Origin: Chromobacterium sp. IIBBL 290-4
GTDB lineage: Bacteria; Pseudomonadota; Gammaproteobacteria; Burkholderiales; Chromobacteriaceae
Reading direction: 5' to 3'
Length of the DNA stretch: 64,000 bases
Assembly (NCBI RefSeq): GCF_024207115.1
Contig: NZ_CP100128.1
Location: forward strand, 4,774,001-4,838,000
Both the position numbers and the translations under genes were made by a program. Positions 41,786 to 57,668 of this stretch are shown in pieces. Below the pieces are notes generated by a model. That model was not told where the DNA came from, did no database searches, and was given only the letters and a program-made list of their open reading frames with translations. Each line of letters begins with the position of its first letter. The first letter of the stretch is position 1.

Positions 41786-42442
41786 TCAAAACAGCCGCGG
41801 CAGCGAGGGAAGCAACGCCTCGCCGCCGGCTTGCAAACGCAATTCGTCCTGATGCCCATGCGACACCAGCAGCGGACGCCAGCCCAGCGCGGCGGCGACC
41901 TCGGCATCGTGCAGCGTGTCGCCGATGAACAACACGCGGTCGGGCGAGACGCCCAGACCGGCTTGCAGCGCCCTCGCCTCTTCCAGTTTGCCGTGCGCCT
42001 CTTTGTGCTTCAGCCCTACGATCTGGTCAAAATAGCCTGATACGTTTTTAGCGCGCACGGCCGCATCCAAAGCTTTCTGATGCGAGGCGGAAAGAATCGA
42101 CAAGCCCAGGCCCGCCGTTCGCGCCTGCTCCAGCAGCTCGACCACGCCCTCATGCAGGCCGCAGTCCGCCGCGTGGCGGTCAAAATGGGAAAGATACAGC
42201 TCGACGATTTCAGCGAAGGGCGCGGCGTCGAAATCAAAGCCCAGATCGGCGTAAAAGTCGGCGATGGGGAAACCGAAGGCGCGGCGATAACGCTCCCGCG
42301 TCACCGCCGGCGCCCGATAGCGGCGGCAGCACAGATTCACGCCTTCCACCGCCAGCTCGATGTCGTCCAGCAAAGTGCCGTTCCAATCGAAGACGATGTG
42401 TTGCACGCCCTCAAACCAATGCCTCGCCGAAGGACTCATCAT
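41786..42442 (-). CDS. HAD-superfamily phosphatase (DWNGT type)
   Basis: The 218-residue HAD subfamily I hydrolase is the last gene of the five-gene operon. Motif I is FDWNGTLLDD: nucleophile Asp19 is present, but the usual second Asp of DxD is Asn21. Motif II Ser is in LSILSAS, motif III Lys in LKHKEAHGK, and motif IV in VLFIGDTLHD. It would dephosphorylate a small phosphate ester; in context perhaps the amino-sugar phosphate made by the upstream enzymes (inference). Its ATG overlaps the aminotransferase stop (ATGA). Confidence 0.85.
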   Translation of the reverse strand: MMSPSARHWFEGVQHIVFDWNGTLLDDIELAVEGVNLCCRRYRAPAVTRERYRRAFGFPIADFYADLGFDFDAAPFAEIVELYLSHFDRHAADCGLHEGVVELLEQARTAGLGLSILSASHQKALDAAVRAKNVSGYFDQIVGLKHKEAHGKLEEARALQAGLGVSPDRVLFIGDTLHDAEVAAALGWRPLLVSHGHQDELRLQAGGEALLPSLPRLF

Positions 42443-43560
42443 GCCTCCTGCGCTGACTCGGGAACGTAGCGGTTAAGCGTCTCTGCGATGTAATCCAGCT
42501 CCTCGCTGCTGAGGTCGGGATGCAAAGGCACGGTGGTGAGCGAGCGCAGCAGGCTAGAAGCATGGGGACAATCGCGGCGATACGGCGCCAGCAGGGCGCG
42601 TTCGTACAAGGGCCGGCTGTCGAACTTGCCCACCTCGGACGGAATGCCGCGTTCTTGCTGATAGCGCACCAGCTGGCGGCCGTCATGTCCTCGCGCCTGC
42701 AGCAGCAAGGCGAAGCCGTTCACCTCGCCGCCCGGCACAATGGGCAGCTCGCGAAACGCCGGATTGTCCAGCATTGCCAGCAAGCGGCTGCGATTGCCCA
42801 AGCGGCTGGCCAGATGCGCGCCCAGCCTCCGCACCCTGGACAAGCCCAAGGCGGCCTGCATGGCGCCCAGCTTCAAATTGAGTCCCACCGTCTCGCCGGC
42901 CAGGTTGCCGAAACGGGTATAGGCGCGCACCCGCTCGGCCAAGGACTCGTCGTCGGTCAGCACGAAGCCGCCCTCGCCGGTGGACATGAACTTGCAATCC
43001 TGGGTGCTGAAGCAGCGGACATCGCCATACTGCCCCAGGAAACGTCCGCGCAAGCGAGTCAGATGGCTGAGCGCCAAGTCCAGCACCAGCGGAATCGCCC
43101 TGCCCTCCAGAATGGCGGCGGTTTGTTCGACATCGACCGGGTAGCCCCACATCGGCACCTCGATCACCGCGCAGGTGCGCGGGCTGAGGCAATGGCGCAA
43201 ATCATCCGGATCCAGCCCGAACCCGTTCGGCGCGACGTCGCAAAACACCGGGGTCAATCCCAACGATAAAATGGGGTAGACCGTGCAGGTCGGGCAGGTC
43301 GGCGCCACGATCACCTCGTCGCCCGGCTGATGCGGCAGGCTGGCCAAAGCCGCCAGCACCGCGGCCGCGCCGGACGAGACCGCGATGGCATGGCGGGCGT
43401 CGTAAACCTTTTTGAGCTCGGCCTCGTATTCGCCGACGATGTCGGCCGTGCCGGACAAGCCGCCTTGCAGCGCCCGCGTCAGCTCGGCTACGTCTTGCTG
43501 GCTGACATGATTGCAGGTTTCGGCGATCTGGCGCCGGCTCTGGATTTCGGTATGCATCAT
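42439..43560 (-). CDS. DegT/DnrJ/EryC1/StrS-family PLP aminotransferase, copy 1
   Basis: The 373-residue protein belongs to the sugar aminotransferase superfamily. The PLP lysine is Lys190 (CFSTQDCKFMSTGEGG), with Asp161 in LVLDLALSH and the SSGAAAVLAAL helix binding phosphate. These enzymes transfer an amino group from Glu or Gln to keto-sugars or keto-cyclitols. It has a TCPTC motif (residues 88-92) shared with the second copy. The ATG at 43558-43560 overlaps the Nudix stop and has AAGGAG upstream. The two copies are clear paralogues, so they may act on successive keto positions. Confidence 0.88.
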   Translation of the reverse strand: MMHTEIQSRRQIAETCNHVSQQDVAELTRALQGGLSGTADIVGEYEAELKKVYDARHAIAVSSGAAAVLAALASLPHQPGDEVIVAPTCPTCTVYPILSLGLTPVFCDVAPNGFGLDPDDLRHCLSPRTCAVIEVPMWGYPVDVEQTAAILEGRAIPLVLDLALSHLTRLRGRFLGQYGDVRCFSTQDCKFMSTGEGGFVLTDDESLAERVRAYTRFGNLAGETVGLNLKLGAMQAALGLSRVRRLGAHLASRLGNRSRLLAMLDNPAFRELPIVPGGEVNGFALLLQARGHDGRQLVRYQQERGIPSEVGKFDSRPLYERALLAPYRRDCPHASSLLRSLTTVPLHPDLSSEELDYIAETLNRYVPESAQEA

Positions 43561-44081
43561 CTCGCTCCTTGATTCAGGACGGCGCTCCACGCCTGCCTGT
43601 CGTCGAACAAACCCTGCAGCATGCGGCGAAAACTGGGAAACATCTCCAGCCCGGCCAGTCGATCATGGCTGAAGAAACCCGCCTCGCCCGCCTCCCGTTC
43701 CATCGGGCAGCGGCGGGAGGCGGTCCGCGCCAGGTAGATCAGATCCAGGTGATAGTGCGGATCGCGCGCATCGGCGATGTATTCGCATAGCACCCGGTAA
43801 GGCAGATGCAGCGGCGTGACATCGGCGGCGGCGTCCGCCAGCCCGGCATCCCGCGCGCCCATCAACTCGGCCGCTATCCCGGTTTCCTCCCGCAGCTCGC
43901 GCAGCGCGGCCTGGTCGGGCGTTTCATCGCGCTCGACATGCCCGCCCGGATACAGCCACACCCCCAGCTTGCGATGGCGCAGCAGCAGCACCTCGCGCGC
44001 GGGATTGAGAACAAAAACCGAGGCGGTGAAATGTTTTTCCAATTCCGGCCGCGCCGGCCCCTCAGTCGCCGTCGTAGCCAT
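43557..44081 (-). CDS. Nudix hydrolase
   Basis: The 174-residue protein has a complete Nudix box at residues 47-69 (GHVERDETPDQAALRELREETG), with the REETG catalytic glutamates in place, so it should cleave a nucleoside diphosphate linked to another group. The N-terminal SVFVLNPAREVLLLRHRKLGVWLYPGG is a normal Nudix strand region. The gene lies inside the operon between two aminotransferase genes, overlapping the upstream one by 20 bp and the downstream one by 4 bp. An NDP-sugar or metabolite-repair substrate is inference only. Confidence 0.9.
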   Translation of the reverse strand: MATTATEGPARPELEKHFTASVFVLNPAREVLLLRHRKLGVWLYPGGHVERDETPDQAALRELREETGIAAELMGARDAGLADAAADVTPLHLPYRVLCEYIADARDPHYHLDLIYLARTASRRCPMEREAGEAGFFSHDRLAGLEMFPSFRRMLQGLFDDRQAWSAVLNQGAR

Positions 44082-45177
44082 TGACGCAATCCGCCATATA
44101 GTCGAGATCCGCCTCGGACAAGCCCGGATGCGCCGGCAGCGTGGTCATGCTCGCCAACAAGGCCTCTGCCTGCGGACATGGCCGTTGATAAGGGGCCAGC
44201 GCCGGAAAACGGTACAGGGCCTTGCAGCCATAGCGCTTGATGTCGGAGGGAATGCCGCGGCGATCCAGATAATCGATGAAGGCGCGGTTGTCGGCGAAAT
44301 CCAGCTGCAGATTGAGGAAGTAATAATTGGGCTCGCCGCCCGCGATGATGGTTTTCTCCTTCACCCGCGGGTGGCTGAGCCGCTTGAGCAGCCGGCGCGC
44401 GTTGGCGCGGCGCTGGGTGATTTGATCGGCCAGCCGCGGCAGCCTGCTCAAGCCCAGGGCGGCGGCCAGGGCCGACAGCTTGTAATTGAGGCCGAAATCG
44501 CGGCCGGTCAGATGGCCGAAATCGATATAGCTGCGGCAACGCCTGGCCAGCTCCTCGTTGTCGCTGAGGATGAAACCGCCCTCGCCGGTGGCCAGCGGCT
44601 TGCGCTCATGGGTGCTGAAGCAGGAGAGATGGCCATAGCGGGACAAGGGCTGGCCTCGCAGCGTGCTGCCGTGCGAATGCGCCAGGTCCAGAATCAACCG
44701 CAGCCCGGACGCATCGGCGAAGCCGCGCAACTCGTCCACCTCGGTGGGATAGCCCCACATCGGGATATCGATGATGGCGCGGCTGCGCGCGGTCAGACGC
44801 TCGGCGATCGATGCCGGATCGGCGCCGAAGCCATGCGGCCGGGTATCGACGAAGATAGGATTGGCGCCGGCCTCGATGATGGGAAACACGGTGCACAGCG
44901 GGCAGCTGGGCGTCAGCAGCACATCGTCGCCCCGCTCCACCCCGGCGGCGAACAACGCCGCACTGAGCGCCGCCCCGCCGGACGACACCGCCACCGCGGC
45001 GCGCGCGTCGAACCACTCGGCCAGAGCGTCCTCGTACTCCGCCACCATGGGGCTGAAGCCGGACAGCGGCCCACTCAGCGCGCGCTGCAGTTGCGCCAGA
45101 TCGTTCGGCCCGGAGGCGCGGTATTTATCGCTGATGGTTCTCAAAGCGGATGGCGCGGCGATTGCAATATCGGTCAT
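44062..45177 (-). CDS. DegT/DnrJ/EryC1/StrS-family PLP aminotransferase, copy 2
   Basis: The 371-residue paralogue of the enzyme at 42439-43560 has PLP Lys193 (CFSTHERKPLATGEGG), Asp164 in LILDLAHSHG, and SSGGAALSAAL. It shares with its partner PMWGYP, GxNxKLxAxxAALGLSR and the SCPLC motif (91-95). The ATG at 45175-45177 is chosen; an in-frame start 24 nt upstream overlaps the dehydrogenase end. It begins 20 bp after the dehydrogenase stop, as expected if it aminates the ketone that enzyme makes. Confidence 0.88.
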   Translation of the reverse strand: MTDIAIAAPSALRTISDKYRASGPNDLAQLQRALSGPLSGFSPMVAEYEDALAEWFDARAAVAVSSGGAALSAALFAAGVERGDDVLLTPSCPLCTVFPIIEAGANPIFVDTRPHGFGADPASIAERLTARSRAIIDIPMWGYPTEVDELRGFADASGLRLILDLAHSHGSTLRGQPLSRYGHLSCFSTHERKPLATGEGGFILSDNEELARRCRSYIDFGHLTGRDFGLNYKLSALAAALGLSRLPRLADQITQRRANARRLLKRLSHPRVKEKTIIAGGEPNYYFLNLQLDFADNRAFIDYLDRRGIPSDIKRYGCKALYRFPALAPYQRPCPQAEALLASMTTLPAHPGLSEADLDYMADCVNGYDGD

Positions 45178-45197
45178 GATCACGGCTCCCCAAACAT

Positions 45198-46247
45198 TCA
45201 CGCGGACAATGTTTCGAAATCGACGGCAGGCAGCAGGCTTCTGCCCTGTTTGCCACCTTGCTCATCGGCAGCACAGATGGCCTCGATGACCCGGTAAGTG
45301 GGCAGCAGGCTGGCGAAGTCGGCCTCGAAGCGCTCACCGTGGCGGATGGCTTCGAAGAATTGATGCAATTCGCCGAAATAGCCGCTGCGCTCATAGCCTG
45401 AGTCCAAAGGTCCCGGCTGCCAGGCGCCGCGCCAGCGCTTGGCGGTGCCGGTGGGGCGCGTGCCATGTTCCGGCTCATGCAGGGTGATGTTCCACAAATT
45501 GTCCAGTTCCACCAGGATGGAGCCGGAGCTGACCAGCTTCATGTCGAACTCGAAATACGGGAAGGTGGTGCCGGCCAGCAGGCTGGCGCTGGCGCCGGAT
45601 GAGAATTCCAGCTCAGCCTTGACTATCATCGCGTCGCCGTGGCGCTGCACATTGGAACCGATCTGCGTCAACTCGCCCTTGCCGAAGGTGACGGCGAGAT
45701 CGATGGTATGGATGGCCTGAGCCAGCAAGAAGGAACGCAAGGTGGAACTCAAGCCCCACAAGGGCGCGCGCGGCTTGCTGGCATAGTGGTTGAGCTGGAT
45801 ATGCAGGGTCTGGCCGAATTCTTCGCACTCGGTCATCTCATGCAGCTGCCGCACCGGCCGGGCGAACTTGAAGTTCATGCCGACGCCGGACACCACCTGC
45901 GCGCGATGGCAAGCCGCGATCAGCGTCTGCAGCTCGCCCAGATTGACGCAAGGCGGCTTCTCGACGAAAACGTTGACGCCGCGCGCCATGGCCAGCATGG
46001 CCGCATTGAAGTGCACCTGCGGCGGACAAGCCAGCACGATGGCGTCCAACGGCACCGCATCCAGCATGGCCGCCGCTTTGTCGAATACCGGCAAGTCCGA
46101 CAGGAAGCGATGGATGCGGCCCGCGCTGGCCTGATTGCTGTCGCACGCGGCGGCGATACGGATATCCGGCATTTGCAGCAGCGCCGGCAACAGGTTTTCC
46201 TGCATCTGGGCGCCTATGCCCACCAAGCCAACTTTCAACACGCTCAT
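45198..46247 (-). CDS. Gfo/Idh/MocA-family NAD(P)-dependent dehydrogenase
   Basis: The 349-residue oxidoreductase has an N-terminal Rossmann fold (LKVGLVGIGAQMQENLLPAL), CPPQVHF, and the signature EKP lysine in NVFVEKPPCVNLGEL. The C-terminal domain continues with HTIDLAVTFG, placing the expected catalytic histidine. Members oxidise or reduce sugars, inositols or sugar phosphates. As first gene of the operon it probably makes the keto substrate for the aminotransferases, as NtdC does for NtdA in kanosamine synthesis; this comparison is inference from gene families, not sequence identity. Confidence 0.88.
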   Translation of the reverse strand: MSVLKVGLVGIGAQMQENLLPALLQMPDIRIAAACDSNQASAGRIHRFLSDLPVFDKAAAMLDAVPLDAIVLACPPQVHFNAAMLAMARGVNVFVEKPPCVNLGELQTLIAACHRAQVVSGVGMNFKFARPVRQLHEMTECEEFGQTLHIQLNHYASKPRAPLWGLSSTLRSFLLAQAIHTIDLAVTFGKGELTQIGSNVQRHGDAMIVKAELEFSSGASASLLAGTTFPYFEFDMKLVSSGSILVELDNLWNITLHEPEHGTRPTGTAKRWRGAWQPGPLDSGYERSGYFGELHQFFEAIRHGERFEADFASLLPTYRVIEAICAADEQGGKQGRSLLPAVDFETLSA

Positions 46248-46504: not shown

Positions 46505-46534
46505 CAAAAAAATTGCCGCCCAAGCGGGCGGCAA
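46505..46534 (-). terminator. Rho-independent terminator of the PBP gene
   Basis: TTGCCGCCC (46513-46521) pairs with GGGCGGCAA (46526-46534) around AAGC; on the minus strand seven T follow immediately. It lies about 30 bp after the PBP stop. Confidence 0.88.
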
Positions 46535-46561: not shown

Positions 46562-49500
46562 TTAGCCTTTCTCGTCGGCGACCTCTCCGTCGGCGGGCAA
46601 GGACAAGTTGTCGGGCGGACGGGTGTACTCGCACAAGCCTCCCCAGCCCGGCACCGTGCACAAAGGCTGCTCGCCCAGAACGCCGAATCCCTTAAGCTGG
46701 GTTCCATCTTCCGCCACCTGGCCATCCACCGGACGCGGCCGCAAATCCAGCCGCGGCAGCAGCGTGGGAGCCAGCACTTTGAGGATTTGCACCGGCAAGG
46801 CGCTGGTGAACTTGTAGTTGGCGGCCTGCTCGCCGGCGACATACGCGACGATGGTGCCGAAGTAATGATCGCCGATATAGAACACGAAGGCGCCGGAACG
46901 GCTGACCACCCGCTCCGAGGTCAAGCCGCCGCCTCGGGAAAAGGTTTTGAAGCGGTTGTCGCCGGTGCCGGTCTTGCCGCCGATCAGCGTGTGCTCGCCC
47001 TTCTGGTCGAAAGCGCCGGAGACGCGCCGCGCCGTGCCTTTGTCCACCACTTCGGACAGCACTTGGCGCACCAGTTGCGGAATTTCCGGCGGCAGCACCC
47101 GCACGCCGATGGCCGGCGCTTCTTTCAGCGAGGTTTCAAACGGCGTTCCCGCAGCGAACTGCATCTTGTCGATGTACACCATGGGCAAACGCACGCCGCC
47201 GTTGGACAGTATGCCCATCAGCTCCGCCAACGCGGCCGGCCGGTCCGCCGACGCGCCCAGCGCGGTGGCGTAAGACGGCACCAGCGAGTCGAAGGGATAG
47301 CCCATCTTCTTCCACTGCAGGTGGATCTGGCGGAAGGCGTCCAGCTCTTGCATCTGGCGGATGCGGCTGTCCTGCCCGCCTTTGCGCTTGCTGTTGAACA
47401 GCCACTGATACACTTCCTGGCGCTCGTCCTCGCTGGCCTGAACCAGCTCGGACCAGTCCGCCTTCGGATGCTGATGCAAATAGGCCACCATCCATAGCTC
47501 CAAGGGGTGGACGCCGGCCAGATAGCCGCGATCCGCCAGATTGAAGCGATCCACGCCCAGTTCGGTGTAAAGCTTGGTGACGGATTTGGGCTCGAGTTTG
47601 GACGGGACCAGCAGATTGGCGCGGATGAAGGCCGCCATCTGCTCCTCATTGCCTTCCGGATGGACGCTGCGATAGATCACCGCCAGCCGCTTGGCGCTGC
47701 GGCGCGCCTTCTCGATCAGCAGGCCATCCCATTCCTCGGTTTTTTTGCCATGGTATTTGCGATAGAAGCCGGCCAGGAAGGTGCGTCCCTCGCGGTCGGC
47801 GAAGCGGCGCAGATACTCGGTGCGGCGCGGATCGCGGCCATCGCCCAGCGCCTTGGCGTCGTAATCGGCCGGATACATGTAATAGCGCGCCACATCGCGC
47901 ATCACCCGGATATAGACCAGGTTGACGGAACGCTGCGTCGCCTCGCGCACGGTGAGAATGCGGCCGTTGTCGTTCTTGTCGAAATTTTCAAAGGTATGGC
48001 GGCCGCCGCCGGTGAAAAAGCTCTCGCCCGGACTGGCGCTGTATTTTCGCTCCAGCGAAGCCTCCAGCATGGCCGGCAGGCTGCGGTCCTGGGTCTGCTT
48101 GAGATAGTCGATGGCCCAGCGCCGCAGGATGGATTCGTGCTCTGAGGTCTTGATCTTCTTCAGATCCTCCGCGCTGACGCCGGCGTATTGCTTGTGCAGA
48201 TCGGCGATCACTTGCAGATAGGTCACCAGCGTGCGCAGCTTGGACGTGGAGCCCAGGTCCAGCTTGGTGCCCTCGTTGATATCGAAGGGTTGATCGAAGT
48301 TGTCCGCCTGCACCCTCACCTTATTGCCGTTGGGCGTGCGTTCGATCAGCGTGAAGCTATAGGTCACGCCACTGGGCGAGCCCTGCTGCAACAGATATTT
48401 GTCGTTCAAACCGGCGGTCTGGGCGAAATCCGGATCGCGCAGCTTCATCAATTCCGCCGTCACCGATTGCTGCAGGCCGGAATCGAGGGTGCTGCCCACA
48501 GTCAGGTCGATATGGTCCAGATCATACATCCGCGGCACGCCCAGCAAGGCTGACAGCTTCACCCGCACCGCGTTGGCGCCCTTGCGCTCTATCGGCGCCA
48601 GGGTCTGCAATTTGACCTTGTCCTTCTGCTGCTTCAGCGACACATTCAAGGCCGCGTCGCGCATCTCATTCGAAATCATTCTGTCCTTGGCCATCAGCCG
48701 CAGATAGGAGTCGGTCAGATTCTCCAGTACCTTCATGTCGCCGTTGAGATAAAACGACGGGCTGCGCTGGGAAATCATCAAGCTCAACGCCTCCTTGAAC
48801 ACCGTCGCCTGCTCGCTCACCGACAACAGCGAGCCGCTGGACAAGGTTTTGTTCACCTCGTCGAAAGAGCGTCCATACCAGGCCCACATGCCGTCGCCGA
48901 TGCCGGACACCTCGCCAAAGCCGGCGCGCGCGGCCAAGGGCACGGTATTGAGGTAGGCCACTACCAGTTGCCGCCGCGCCAGCGTGGTGTCGTCGCCGCC
49001 TTGATAGGCGCGCACCGAAGCCGACAGCATCTGCTTCAGTTTTTCTTTGGGCGAGCCGGTGCGGCCGCCCGGGGAATGGCGGAATTTCTCGATCTGGGTC
49101 GCCAAGGTGCTGGCGCCGGCCGAATGGTAGCCCGGCCGGAACAGGTGCGCGGCCTCGTCCGCCAAGGCCTTGCCGAAGCGCGACCACTCCACCGCCGGAT
49201 TCTGCTGCGGATTGCCGTCGTCAAGCAGGGTGTGGTTTTCGATGTAGAGCAAGCCGGTCACCAGCAAGGGCGGCAAGGCGTCGAAATCCTTGTAGACGCG
49301 TTGCGGATATTGCGACTGGTAGATGGAGCGGCCATAGCCGTCATACACCTGCAAGCCGGCCTGGTCTTTCTCGTGATACGGCAGGAACAGGCCCAGCGGC
49401 GCGACCGGCCCGGTCACGCCGCTGTCGGCCAGTTGCACCATGCCGGAAGATTGCCGCGCCTGGCCGCTGATCAGGTAGCCGCGGTCCTGCAAGCGTTTGA

Positions 49501-49780
49501 GATAGCCTGGCAATCCGGCGTAGCCCATCCGGATATCGTATGGACCGCCAGGCGCGGGGAAGCGGATGTCCGGGCTATGGCCCGGCTTGACTTCGTAACT
49601 GGCCTGCCTGGCCGCGCGTCCGAAAAACCATGACTGCCAGCGCGAAGTATGGATTTCATTCAACAGCAGCACGCCGCCCAGACCGAGCAACAAGGCCGCC
49701 AGGATGATCAGCGCCCACCATGTAGAAGAAAACGGTCCGCCCAAACGCAAGCGTATTCTGGCTTCCGAAGTATCTATCAT
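46562..49780 (-). CDS. Long class A penicillin-binding protein (GT51 plus transpeptidase)
   Basis: The 1072-residue protein has one membrane helix (about 21-41), a GT51-like domain with variant motifs (LLYIENHTLL, Glu181; GASTLATQIEKF, 222-233) and a transpeptidase with SxxK Ser511-Lys514 (STSK), SVN 618-620 and KTGTGD 936-941. About 315 residues separate SVN from KTGT, against roughly 125 in E. coli PBP1b, so a large insertion is present. It should polymerise and crosslink peptidoglycan, but it is not a standard PBP1a/1b/1c. The ATG at 49778-49780 fits the membrane anchor; it has only a weak ribosome site. Confidence 0.87.
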   Translation of the reverse strand: MIDTSEARIRLRLGGPFSSTWWALIILAALLLGLGGVLLLNEIHTSRWQSWFFGRAARQASYEVKPGHSPDIRFPAPGGPYDIRMGYAGLPGYLKRLQDRGYLISGQARQSSGMVQLADSGVTGPVAPLGLFLPYHEKDQAGLQVYDGYGRSIYQSQYPQRVYKDFDALPPLLVTGLLYIENHTLLDDGNPQQNPAVEWSRFGKALADEAAHLFRPGYHSAGASTLATQIEKFRHSPGGRTGSPKEKLKQMLSASVRAYQGGDDTTLARRQLVVAYLNTVPLAARAGFGEVSGIGDGMWAWYGRSFDEVNKTLSSGSLLSVSEQATVFKEALSLMISQRSPSFYLNGDMKVLENLTDSYLRLMAKDRMISNEMRDAALNVSLKQQKDKVKLQTLAPIERKGANAVRVKLSALLGVPRMYDLDHIDLTVGSTLDSGLQQSVTAELMKLRDPDFAQTAGLNDKYLLQQGSPSGVTYSFTLIERTPNGNKVRVQADNFDQPFDINEGTKLDLGSTSKLRTLVTYLQVIADLHKQYAGVSAEDLKKIKTSEHESILRRWAIDYLKQTQDRSLPAMLEASLERKYSASPGESFFTGGGRHTFENFDKNDNGRILTVREATQRSVNLVYIRVMRDVARYYMYPADYDAKALGDGRDPRRTEYLRRFADREGRTFLAGFYRKYHGKKTEEWDGLLIEKARRSAKRLAVIYRSVHPEGNEEQMAAFIRANLLVPSKLEPKSVTKLYTELGVDRFNLADRGYLAGVHPLELWMVAYLHQHPKADWSELVQASEDERQEVYQWLFNSKRKGGQDSRIRQMQELDAFRQIHLQWKKMGYPFDSLVPSYATALGASADRPAALAELMGILSNGGVRLPMVYIDKMQFAAGTPFETSLKEAPAIGVRVLPPEIPQLVRQVLSEVVDKGTARRVSGAFDQKGEHTLIGGKTGTGDNRFKTFSRGGGLTSERVVSRSGAFVFYIGDHYFGTIVAYVAGEQAANYKFTSALPVQILKVLAPTLLPRLDLRPRPVDGQVAEDGTQLKGFGVLGEQPLCTVPGWGGLCEYTRPPDNLSLPADGEVADEKG

Positions 49781-49953
49781 GATTTCTGTCCGGCCTGCCC
49801 GGCCGCCCCCACAGCATGAACTGGAGAAAGTGCTGAAACCCGTGCGCGCTTGGCGGCGCATCCGCCGACGGACACGGCGAAACCGCTCCGCCCAATCTCA
49901 CTATCGGACAGCCTTCGCGCTTTCGAAAGGTGCTTAACAAGGTCAAATGGCCT

Positions 49954-50117: not shown

Positions 50118-50693
50118 TCATCCGCCCAACTGGAACACCTCCTCGCCGATCGGGCCCGTTTGCAGATTGGGGAAGTCGCGCACCGACACGCGCCCCCGCT
50201 CGCTCTCGGTCACCATGCGCAGCAAACGGTCGGTGCCGGCCTGGAAATACAGGGTAATCGGCCCCTTGCCCGGCCGCGCGCATCGCCAGCCTTCGGCCTC
50301 CACGCCCAACACCACGGCAGGCTCGACGGCCTCAGTCTCATGGCGCGTCAACAAGTCCCTGGGCAGAAACAGCTCGGCGAACGGGCCCAGCTCGTCGTCC
50401 AGCAACGCGTCGTGCAGGCGCACGCCATCCGCTTCGCGCTCCCTGGCGTAAGCCACTTTGCGCTTGAATGTGCGGCCGCGGGCGGCATCGCCGATTTCCG
50501 ACATCCACAGCCGATAGCCGGTCTTTTCCTCCGACCAGGGGTTGAACAGGCCGTCTATTCGGCAGATGTTGCGCCCGTAATCGAACCAGCAAAAACCGGA
50601 GGTGAGCTGGTCATCCTCCTGCATAGGCGACCAATAGGACACATAAGCGCCGCTCCAGCGCTCCGGCAGCAGCGGCGGCTCCTGATTGCGCAT
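50118..50693 (-). CDS. vioE: Violacein biosynthesis protein VioE
   Basis: The 191-residue cofactor-free enzyme rearranges the short-lived IPA-imine dimer from VioA/VioB into protodeoxyviolaceinic acid, keeping the pathway from forming chromopyrrolic acid. Length equals C. violaceum VioE, and the known active-site residues Tyr17, Ser19, Phe50, Asn51, Glu66 and Arg172 are all at the same positions. GAGGG precedes the ATG. It is the last gene of vioABCDE, 12 bp after vioD, followed by a terminator. Many other positions differ from the remembered C. violaceum sequence. Confidence 0.98.
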   Translation of the reverse strand: MRNQEPPLLPERWSGAYVSYWSPMQEDDQLTSGFCWFDYGRNICRIDGLFNPWSEEKTGYRLWMSEIGDAARGRTFKRKVAYAREREADGVRLHDALLDDELGPFAELFLPRDLLTRHETEAVEPAVVLGVEAEGWRCARPGKGPITLYFQAGTDRLLRMVTESERGRVSVRDFPNLQTGPIGEEVFQLGG

Positions 50694-56160: not shown

Positions 56161-57423
56161 TCATGCGCACAGACAGGATTCGATTTGTTCCAGCAGCAAG
56201 GCGCTGCCGGCGCGGGCGCTGATCAAGGCGCCCTCCATCCAGCCGCAATGCTCGGTGAAAGCGTCGGAACAGGCGATGATGGCGCTCTCCGGGTGTTGAA
56301 TGGCCGGCGCATGGCCCGCGCCGGCGTCCCGGCAAAACTCCACGCCATGCGGCCAATATTGCTGCACATGGCTGGCCGGCAAGGGCACCGCCTCCAGCGG
56401 CAAGTCCAAAGCCTGGGCCAGGCAACTGCGGACATGCTCCAGATACCATGCCTCGCCGTCCGACAGGGTGACGCGCCAGTAATCGGCCGCCGCGCTGTCG
56501 GTGTAGAAAAAGACGTGGCGATCGCCCTTGAAATAAATTTTCCGCAACGGGTTATCGACAATGCGCACCTGGTCGCGCAGACCCAAGGCATCCCACCAGG
56601 GCTGCTCGTAAACCAGAAAGGCCTTGAATAAGGGCAAGGAGCCATAGCGCGTCTCGCCCCACGCTGCGGGAAAATCCACGCCGGCTTTTGACAAGGCGGA
56701 AGGCGGCATCGCCAATACAAGAAAGCGGCAACGCAATATATGCTTCTCGCCGCTCTCATCCAGCAAAACCAGCTCATGCCTGCCGGCGCCGCCGCGCGTC
56801 TCGATCAAGCGCAAGCCCAAATGGAATTGAACGCCTTGGGCCTGGGCATATTGCTGCAGGCTGTCGGTCAAATCATTAAACCCATCCGCGGCGGAAAACC
56901 ATGGATGCTCATCCTGACCGGCGATATTCTGGACCTCCGGATGCTTGCCGATAATATCGTATGCCATTTCTGCAGAAATGATAGGCAGAAACAAGGCATC
57001 GTAGCCCAAAGAGCGGATCAAATCGAAAGCGCGCCCTTCCCCATGAAAGCGGGCGACAAAATCCATGAAGGGCATATGACCAAAAGCCGCCAGATTGCCT
57101 TCCATTTCACGCAACAAAATTCTCATATCCTGCTGCGCGGCGTTTTCAACGTTGATTTTGGTGAAAGGGAAAGTCACGCTGCGAATGCCGTGCTGCTGCA
57201 AAGCCTGGTGAAAGTTTGGGTGCCAATGAGGCGAATAGCGGCCAGCGCCCAGTTCTACCACGCTGCCGCAATCCAGGCTGCGCGAGCGGACCCTTCCCCC
57301 GGTGGCCGGCCTGGCATCGACAACGCTGATCGTCAACTCCCGACACAATGGAGATTCAAGCAGATGATTCACGCAGCTCAAGCCGCTCATGCCTGCCCCT
57401 ACAATGCAAATATCTGCTTCCAA
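56161..57423 (-). CDS. vioA: VioA, FAD-dependent L-tryptophan oxidase
   Basis: The enzyme oxidises L-tryptophan to indole-3-pyruvate imine, the first step of violacein synthesis. The FAD motif DICIVGAGMSGLSC is at residues 4-17, ELGAGRYSP contains Arg62 (Arg64 in C. violaceum numbering), and GSLPLFKAFLVY and FFYTDS carry the conserved substrate-site Lys and Tyr. The start is probably TTG at 57421-57423, with AAGGGAG 8 nt upstream; this gives 420 residues against 418 in C. violaceum. The in-frame ATG at 57475-57477 would add 18 residues without homology. Confidence 0.96.
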   Translation of the reverse strand: MEADICIVGAGMSGLSCVNHLLESPLCRELTISVVDARPATGGRVRSRSLDCGSVVELGAGRYSPHWHPNFHQALQQHGIRSVTFPFTKINVENAAQQDMRILLREMEGNLAAFGHMPFMDFVARFHGEGRAFDLIRSLGYDALFLPIISAEMAYDIIGKHPEVQNIAGQDEHPWFSAADGFNDLTDSLQQYAQAQGVQFHLGLRLIETRGGAGRHELVLLDESGEKHILRCRFLVLAMPPSALSKAGVDFPAAWGETRYGSLPLFKAFLVYEQPWWDALGLRDQVRIVDNPLRKIYFKGDRHVFFYTDSAAADYWRVTLSDGEAWYLEHVRSCLAQALDLPLEAVPLPASHVQQYWPHGVEFCRDAGAGHAPAIQHPESAIIACSDAFTEHCGWMEGALISARAGSALLLEQIESCLCA

Positions 57424-57625
57424 TGCACCCACTCCCTTGCCTGACGAGCTAATACATTCAAGTTTGCGACCGCCCATGACGGCGCAGAATGCAATTAACG
57501 CAGCCTTGATTTGAACATGGAAAATACAGACGACAACTTACCAACTAAGAATGCAACGACAAAAAACAGTTTCAAACACCACTACACATGCTGGACAACG
57601 CTAATTTAAACAAGAGGAAATTTCA

Positions 57626-57668
57626 AAATTATTGCCTGCCAAAATTAAATAACTGTCCAATATGTCAG
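57626..57668 (-). promoter_or_regulatory. Quorum-sensing promoter of vioABCDE: CviR box plus -10
   Basis: CTGTCCAATATGTCAG (57653-57668) matches the reported CviR consensus CTGNCCNNNNGGNCAG with a single mismatch. On the minus strand a -10-like TAATTT lies at 57626-57631, placing the box centre at about -42 from the inferred start site (near 57619), the class II position for LuxR-type activators. The gap to vioA implies a 5' leader of about 200 nt. Confidence 0.7.

Follow-up and report, generated by a model that had tools for sequence, protein, structure and literature searches.

The window, a 64,000-nucleotide stretch of the Chromobacterium sp. IIBBL 290-4 genome, carries on its minus strand, from 46247 to 41786, five open reading frames in the order Gfo, DegT1, Nudix, DegT2 and HAD, separated by gaps of at most 20 bases (Table 1). 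The initial annotation had described a compact five-gene operon of a Gfo/Idh dehydrogenase, two DegT aminotransferases, a Nudix hydrolase and a HAD protein, all tightly packed or overlapping, and this description was correct: all five Pfam families were matched, the DegT1/Nudix, Nudix/DegT2 and DegT2/HAD pairs overlap, and the operon is conserved in other genomes. On reading the DNA, the most likely start of DegT1 is ATG 45177, 20 nt past the Gfo stop, and that of DegT2 is ATG 43560, which overlaps the Nudix stop; the GTG starts listed for these two genes are probably too far upstream. The Nudix ATG at 44081 overlaps the end of DegT1 by 20 nt, and the HAD ATG at 42442 overlaps the end of DegT2 by 4 nt. 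A PPTase gene lies 3' of HAD. The host is a violacein-producing bacterium. A terminator-like hairpin 3' of the upstream penicillin-binding-protein gene sets that gene apart from the operon; seven terminator-like sites were found in the region versus 6.1 expected, so the case for a terminator at this position comes from the strength of the hairpin.

Table 1. Features of the operon and its upstream flank.
Feature	Coordinates	Strand	Length or structure	Pfam match
Gfo/Idh/MocA dehydrogenase (Gfo)	45198..46247	-	349 aa	PF01408, 66.7 bits; PF22725, 28.4 bits
DegT1 aminotransferase	44062..45177	-	371 aa from ATG 45177; frame open from GTG 45201	PF01041, 214.6 bits
Nudix hydrolase	43557..44081	-	174 aa	PF00293, 60.9 bits
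DegT2 aminotransferase	42439..43560	-	373 aa from ATG 43560; frame open from GTG 43590	PF01041, 200.4 bits
HAD hydrolase	41786..42442	-	218 aa	PF13419 (HAD_2), 73.8 bits
Intrinsic-terminator-like hairpin	46513..46534	-	9-bp stem followed by a run of seven T	

Gfo scored 591 bits against the solved structure 3m2t, a "Probable dehydrogenase." Both DegT genes encode the catalytic lysine, within the motif ERKPLATGEGG in DegT1 (for which 335 relatives were found) and DCKFMSTGEGG in DegT2, and both are conserved with their lysines in all 24 aligned loci, the window included. The Nudix box is complete (GGHVERDETPDQAALRELREETGI). Motif I of the HAD protein reads DWN instead of the usual DxD, leaving out the second Asp, and DWNGT is found in 24 of 24 aligned sequences; the best solved relative of this protein is AlnB (4ex6, 47.8 bits), presumably the phosphatase of a ribosyl 5'-phosphate. 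The solved structure nearest to both DegT proteins is 7b0m, labeled "sugar aminotransferase," with the scyllo-inositol transaminase 7b0d also near, and by this kinship a sugar or a cyclitol substrate would fit equally well.

The same five-gene order was found at 21 other collected loci (19 loci plus L108 and L109) in Chromobacterium, Pseudomonas, Burkholderiaceae, Dyella, and myxobacteria, with the same genes rearranged in Enterobacteriaceae. Such repetition indicates that the gene set is more than a chance assembly, and a lack of conservation, which would have spoken against the initial annotation, was not seen. In the relatives, these genes are usually part of a cluster of 12 to 13 genes (L008 to L025, L105, L106, L108, and L109), which shares the five genes of the window, in identical order except in Enterobacteriaceae, but additionally encodes an FAD oxidoreductase, a desaturase-like protein, an MTAP-like enzyme, a second Nudix protein, a solute-binding protein, an MFS protein, and a second HAD protein. 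Neither these nor further downstream genes of the cluster were found at the window locus. The FAD oxidoreductase gene lies between DegT2 and HAD at all 24 collected orthologous loci (L008 to L026 and L105 to L109, with L107 cut off by a contig end), and the exact five-gene set without it occurs, among the collected loci, in the window only. A search across the whole genome of the window returned no match to the FAD oxidoreductase at an E value of 0.001 or below, an empty answer that by itself shows little; the tree, which places the window with five Chromobacterium relatives against the rest (support 89.8/87) and so adds common descent to common gene order, points to loss. The larger cluster is widespread and undescribed; the literature searches made turned up no paper on it and, in line with the initial annotation, no described pathway with exactly the window's set.

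As judged by sequence comparison, the operon genes of the window are kept by purifying selection, since few changes fall at invariant sites and codon-position differences decrease from third to first to second position. The latter pattern held in nearly every comparison, the exception being Nudix against L011, in which second and first positions were equal. Among otherwise invariant positions, the window copies are changed at 3 of 104 in Gfo, 9 of 100 in DegT2, and 1 of 46 in Nudix, and L026 and L022 exceed the window in such changes in Gfo, DegT1, and DegT2. Together with five frames that are all open, packed, and overlapping, these observations argue against the operon being a dying remnant that makes nothing useful once stripped of its FAD oxidoreductase and downstream genes. 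That alternative, which we regard as quite improbable, draws on the absence here of those genes (the FAD gene being present in every collected relative), on a window branch of 0.39 in the tree versus at most 0.15 for the tips of its Chromobacterium relatives, and on the DLAL of the window DegT2 versus DLAH in 21 of 24 aligned sequences; the DLAH histidine, however, is also missing from two Enterobacteriaceae DegT2 rows.

The initial annotation had likened the operon to NtdABC, which converts glucose 6-phosphate to kanosamine. NtdABC uses the same DegT, Gfo/Idh, and HAD families, but it has one DegT and is not known to include a Nudix, and NtdA is not near either window DegT, ranking as the 29th match of DegT1 (86.2 bits versus 137.2 for the best) and the 13th of DegT2 (90.9 versus 107.2). 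The kanosamine comparison was rejected on the DegT ranking and the presence of a Nudix gene. Two aminations may still take place, since two different lysine-bearing DegT genes are conserved throughout the aligned loci.

Gene neighbors of the relatives point to nucleotides and not to glucose 6-phosphate. At 34 of 44 loci with a DegT1 identity of at least 35%, a dNK, NDK, DNMK, cytidine-deaminase-like, or PNP/MTAP-like gene lies within 9 kb, and the count is 16 of 25 when the cluster's own 19 loci are subtracted. Pfam confirmed dNK (59.8 bits), NDK (144.6 and 134.7 bits), and cytidine deaminase (49.0 bits) domains among these neighbors, together with a DNMK (45.4 bits) directly 3' of the Gfo-DegT-Nudix trio in L042, and the MTA-phosphorylase-like enzyme of the full cluster scored 234 bits to RsfP and 219.6 bits to an MTA phosphorylase. 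Among distant DegTs, the same scan gave 0 of 17 loci, which is not a clean negative because its queries were taken from the near DegT group. A clean contrast between near and distant neighborhoods was given up after a Pfam scan of 58 neighbors at 16 of these 17 loci (L055, whose frame was not found, was omitted) identified five thymidylate-kinase and five HD proteins. In the window itself, no nucleotide-kinase or phosphorylase gene adjoins the operon among the nine proteins between 39.4 and 50.7 kb.

These neighborhoods bear on two further readings. In the first, Gfo and a DegT would form a 3-amino or diamino UDP-sugar, from which Nudix would release the sugar 1-phosphate and HAD the free aminosugar. 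Gfo plus DegT is the standard pair for this chemistry, as in GnnA/GnnB and WbpB/WbpE, which make such amino UDP-sugars; moreover, the best solved DegT relative is labeled as a sugar aminotransferase, and Gfo weakly resembles a UDP-GlcNAc 3-dehydrogenase (48.7 bits against an NCBIfam cut-off of 450). We nevertheless consider this reading rather unlikely, as it offers no evident role for the dNK, DNMK, NDK, deaminase, and PNP neighbors. No glycosyltransferase, epimerase, dehydratase, or sugar-nucleotide gene was seen among the nine window proteins, and neither of the first two nor a dehydratase was seen among the scanned cluster genes. The named homologues listed bear generic family names only, and O-antigen homologues, which would have contradicted the initial annotation, were not among them. 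The second reading, a route of the aminocyclitol or kanosamine type (resembling that of NtdABC, 2-deoxystreptamine, or AHBA), seems very improbable to us: although dehydrogenase, DegT, and HAD are present and weak matches link HAD (32.4 bits, cut-off 246.65) to an "AHBA synthesis associated protein" and Gfo (61.3 bits, cut-off 355) to inositol 2-dehydrogenase, NtdA and AHBA synthase rank low for the DegTs, the relatives adjoin nucleotide enzymes, and we know of no role for a Nudix protein in such routes. An AHBA route specifically was rejected, its matches being weak and far below the cut-offs.

By described gene roles, the route to the aminonucleosides puromycin and 3'-amino-3'-deoxyguanosine (ADG) appears to be a closer precedent than NtdABC. 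We take Pur10 to be of the Gfo/Idh family, Pur4 of the DegT family, and Pur3 to be inositol-monophosphatase-like. In the published accounts, pur10, pur4, pur7, and pur3 of puromycin and ataP10, ataP4, ataP7, and ataP3 of A201A are assigned to a NAD-dependent ATP dehydrogenase, an aminotransferase, a Nudix protein, and a monophosphatase (PMC11641026), and the Photorhabdus luminescens ADG operon, adgA-E, is described as containing homologues of pur10, pur4, pur7, and pur3, of which adgB-E alone sufficed for the ADG product in E. coli (PMC9239236). Compared by the roles given there, the ADG operon resembles that of the window in being small, in its Gram-negative host, and in combining dehydrogenase, aminotransferase, Nudix, and phosphatase, whereas it has an MFS gene and the window operon has no transporter. 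The puromycin and A201A modules, on the same footing, share the dehydrogenase-aminotransferase-Nudix-monophosphatase logic but include peptidyl or glycosyl additions absent from the window. Encoded together in the window are a Gfo/Idh-type dehydrogenase, DegT, Nudix, and phosphatase; the candidate in place of a Pur3-type monophosphatase is the HAD protein, and two DegTs, both with the lysine motif, stand where the described systems have a single aminotransferase. No Pur- or Adg-named protein appeared among the best 120 matches listed in searches for relatives. In Streptomyces, the Nudix profile and the ADG primer pattern each matched 0 of 392, and the DegT profile matched 1 of 387, its sole match being the genome used as starting point.

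The reading that we consider most likely, with moderate confidence, is that the operon represents the undescribed 12- to 13-gene cluster in reduced form and makes an aminonucleoside. By analogy with Pur10-Pur4-Pur7-Pur3 and AdgB-E, we infer its substrate, positions, step order, product, and activity as follows. Gfo would oxidize a ribose hydroxyl on a nucleoside triphosphate in a NAD-dependent reaction, and DegT1 would convert the ketone to an amine. Nudix would then take off pyrophosphate (NTP to NMP plus PPi), yielding an amino-nucleoside monophosphate, and DegT2 may add a second amino group or act on a different intermediate. HAD, as a 5'-phosphatase, would remove the last phosphate to give a free aminonucleoside, an antimetabolite. 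In favor of this route are the correspondence of the enzyme set to the described aminonucleoside gene sets, the nucleotide enzymes encoded next to relatives of the DegTs, the MTA-phosphorylase-like enzyme of the full cluster, the selection acting on the window genes, and the kinship of HAD to AlnB; against it are the sugar aminotransferase types nearest to the DegTs among solved structures, a HAD protein with an atypical motif I in the place of Pur3, two aminotransferases versus one in puromycin and ADG, and the lack of a nucleotide-kinase or phosphorylase gene among the nine proteins scanned around the window operon.

More tentatively, the operon and its parent cluster family may produce a doubly aminated nucleoside (e.g., a 2',3'-diamino-2',3'-dideoxynucleoside), a natural nucleotide mimic of an unrecorded class. 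The window strain might go no further than the bare diamino-nucleoside. In other Chromobacterium and in Pseudomonas and Burkholderiaceae, the FAD and desaturase-like enzymes might oxidize and tailor this compound and the MTAP-like enzyme might handle it, the DegTs possibly being part of a wider, unrecognized set of nucleotide-acting aminotransferases.

If the aminonucleoside reading is true, it would add a family of aminonucleoside pathways in Gram-negative bacteria that uses two amination enzymes and whose product is undescribed, ranging over Chromobacterium, plant-associated Pseudomonas, Burkholderiaceae, myxobacteria, and Enterobacteriaceae, and a group of DegTs annotated as sugar aminotransferases would become probable nucleotide aminotransferases. 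Amino-modified nucleosides are small molecules able to act as antibiotics. The five-gene version in the window would represent a natural minimal set, short enough for expression of the whole operon in E. coli to be feasible, as with ADG.

Other scans of the region returned little. Rfam gave 0 matches between 40000 and 47500, PADLOC gave a weak Nudix match only, and no site near the operon fitted a presumed quorum-sensing box consensus with 0 to 1 mismatches; the sole two-mismatch site close by in front of Gfo falls inside the terminator stem. A heterodimer of DegT1 and DegT2 was also considered, prompted by fused DegT-DegT proteins (P0084 and others) in which the first half is without the lysine. 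This idea was dropped because G041, G186, and G340 encode the lysine-less DegT separately, in addition to an intact DegT1 and an intact DegT2 and as a third gene next to them, which indicates that the fusions join a lysine-less DegT to DegT2.

The five operon genes, for a Gfo/Idh dehydrogenase, two DegT aminotransferases (DegT1 and DegT2), a Nudix hydrolase, and a HAD protein, lie in a genome of 5,117,379 bases on a single contig. They were initially annotated as tightly packed or overlapping, which held: with the likely starts, a 20-nt gap separates Gfo/Idh from DegT1 and the other three joints overlap. A strong terminator-like hairpin separates the upstream penicillin-binding-protein gene from the operon, and the PPTase gene is next after HAD. 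Four of the five proteins scored below the cut-off of every NCBIfam model; HAD passed only a superfamily model (TIGR01549, 24.6 versus 23.3). A penicillin-binding-protein-like gene sits between the operon and vioE.

Features in the window and in related loci
Feature	Sequence	Coordinates	Strand	Matches or remarks
Five-gene operon	window	46247-41786	minus	Gfo/Idh, DegT1, Nudix, DegT2, HAD
Penicillin-binding-protein-like gene	window	46562-49861		1099 aa; transglycosylase 47.4 bits, transpeptidase 27.0 bits, both weak
VioE gene	window	50118-50693		Pfam / NCBIfam matches
ORF, probably vioA (by position)	window	56161-57477		
Quorum-sensing palindrome, one mismatch	window	57653-57668		176 nt before the putative vioA
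Lysine-less third DegT paralogue	L105	8927-9928		Enterobacteriaceae
Lysine-less third DegT paralogue	L107	3297-4304		Enterobacteriaceae
Larger-cluster genes	L011			Pfam bits: FAD_oxidored 31.8; FA_desaturase 65.1; PNP_UDP_1 137.8; NUDIX 39.6; SBP_bac_8 33.6; MFS_1 66.2; HAD_2 110.2

The operon had been singled out as a candidate undescribed system, and its gene set proved to be conserved elsewhere. A profile of 33 DegT1 sequences (A1), run on genome contigs, gave 61 loci, 19 of which (L008-L026) keep the order Gfo-DegT1-Nudix-DegT2-HAD in Chromobacterium, Pseudomonas, Paraburkholderia, Mycetohabitans, Dyella, Archangium, and Myxococcus; two more Chromobacterium genomes (L108, L109) share it. 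Within the genus, DegT1 was found at E <= 1e-60 in 6 of 19 genomes, counting that of the window. A related cluster, in which Nudix comes first and a third DegT is present that has no catalytic lysine, occurs in 3 of 387 Enterobacteriaceae genomes. In Pectobacterium aroidearum, a lysine-less DegT is fused to DegT2 (P0084 and other proteins of 595-648 aa); the lysine-less DegT is possibly a non-catalytic partner completing the DegT2 dimer. Another natural fusion, P0139 (633 aa), unites HAD and DegT domains, two of the operon's enzyme kinds. The Gfo homologue of Mycetohabitans rhizoxinica (P0244) is named as plasmid-borne, and the cluster may therefore move between strains.

These relatives belong to a larger cluster. 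An FAD oxidoreductase gene lies between DegT2 and HAD in 24/24 loci (L008-L026, L105-L109). All but one of the 19 loci L008-L026 have desaturase-like, MTAP-like, and second Nudix genes downstream, no more than 9 kb away; the exception, L026, has none of the three. Genes for MFS, solute-binding, and second HAD proteins are frequent within the same distance and absent from some loci. The PNP protein is nearest to RsfP and MTA phosphorylases. None of these extra genes is present at the window locus, and a search of the window's whole genome for the FAD gene gave no match. Since all relatives carry the FAD gene, the window operon may make another product than they do. Twelve neighbouring window genes (vio, PBP, PPTase, and others), compared with the flanks of L008-L068 at E <= 1e-20, matched the window's own loci only; thus, the operon occupies another chromosomal site than in the Chromobacterium loci compared.

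In a five-gene tree, the window joins five Chromobacterium loci (support 89.8/87 for this group versus all others), its own branch being long at 0.39. With the root placed by choice among the myxobacteria and enterobacteria, the deeper branches have the FAD gene, and its loss in the window lineage would be the simpler reading. The remaining genes show no decay. Of the residues that the other 21 loci all share, the window changes 3/104 in Gfo, 5/139 in DegT1, 1/46 in Nudix, 9/100 in DegT2, and 1/52 in HAD; L026 and L022 exceed it for Gfo, DegT1, and DegT2, and third codon positions were the most divergent in 15/15 comparisons. All 24 DegT1 and all 24 DegT2 sequences keep the DegT lysine motif, and 21/24 DegT2 sequences have DLAH, the exceptions being the window (DLAL) and two Enterobacteriaceae. 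The window Nudix box is complete; its first Glu is missing from L105 and L106. All 24 HAD sequences have DWNGT as motif I (DWN at residues 19-21 of the window protein), with Asn in place of the second Asp, the residue that usually serves as general acid/base. The phosphatase role of HAD is therefore less certain, judged from its residues, than the roles of the other enzymes.

Gene neighbourhoods point to nucleotides. DegT1 identity was at least 35% in 44 of the 61 profile-matched loci, and with queries from this near group, 34 of the 44 have a dNK, NDK, DNMK, deaminase-like, or PNP-like gene within 9 kb (16/25 without the larger cluster's own 19 loci). In ten loci, actinobacterial or from Rhizobium, the genes run dNK, zinc-type dehydrogenase, DegT, Nudix. 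In L042, a Gfo-DegT-Nudix trio precedes a deoxynucleotide monophosphate kinase gene; NDK accompanies DegT in L044 and L047, and L048 and L049 have a deaminase-like gene. Together, the neighbouring kinases form a ladder from nucleoside to NTP, with Nudix and HAD as the return path. Against a nucleotide substrate, the solved structures nearest both DegTs are sugar aminotransferases, a closeness that is general family resemblance and lends nucleotides no support. Distant loci scored 0/17 with the near-group queries. However, Pfam on 58 neighbours of 16 distant loci found five thymidylate-kinase and five HD proteins, some adjoining radical SAM and exonuclease genes; the far group is therefore no negative control, which suggests that nucleotide-enzyme neighbours spread even wider than the near group.

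The operon would share, by analogy, the enzyme logic of aminonucleoside modules. Photorhabdus adgB-E, homologues of pur10, pur4, pur7, and pur3, yielded 3'-amino-3'-deoxyguanosine in E. coli (PMC9239236). A review lists 3'-amino-3'-deoxyadenosine and 2'-amino nucleosides among those without identified gene clusters and cites 2'-amino-2'-deoxyguanosine from an Enterobacter (PMC12648386). Unlike Pur-type modules, the operon has two DegT genes, has HAD in place of Pur3, and has a much larger, undescribed parent cluster, on which no paper was found in a search whose coverage left out most subscription journals.

Several loci have other compositions. In gut Clostridia (L053, L054, L057, L058, L061), DegT adjoins a radical SAM protein scoring 82-85 bits with PADLOC viperin models. 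The two loci scanned, L053 and L054, carry an RNase_T/DEDDh exonuclease, and a thymidylate-kinase protein, individually shown in L057, is a further member (five such proteins among the 58 neighbours); this could be a nucleotide-modifying set. Patescibacteria (L027, L028) have radical SAM-DegT-Nudix, with DegT 48-49% identical to window DegT1 and the L028 radical SAM protein matching viperin models at about 70 bits. Distant DegTs also occur in Enterobacteriaceae (L052, L056, L059, L060, L062), with the order in L056 being CsiD/TauD-like and HD-domain proteins, DegT, and a LysR regulator. Rahnella and Serratia (L035, L051) have DegT-Nudix-MFS genes and a DegT frame open in its later part only; judged from its translations, DNA near the Rahnella genes looks transposase-like. 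In the window, three further one-mismatch sites for the quorum-sensing palindrome are present.
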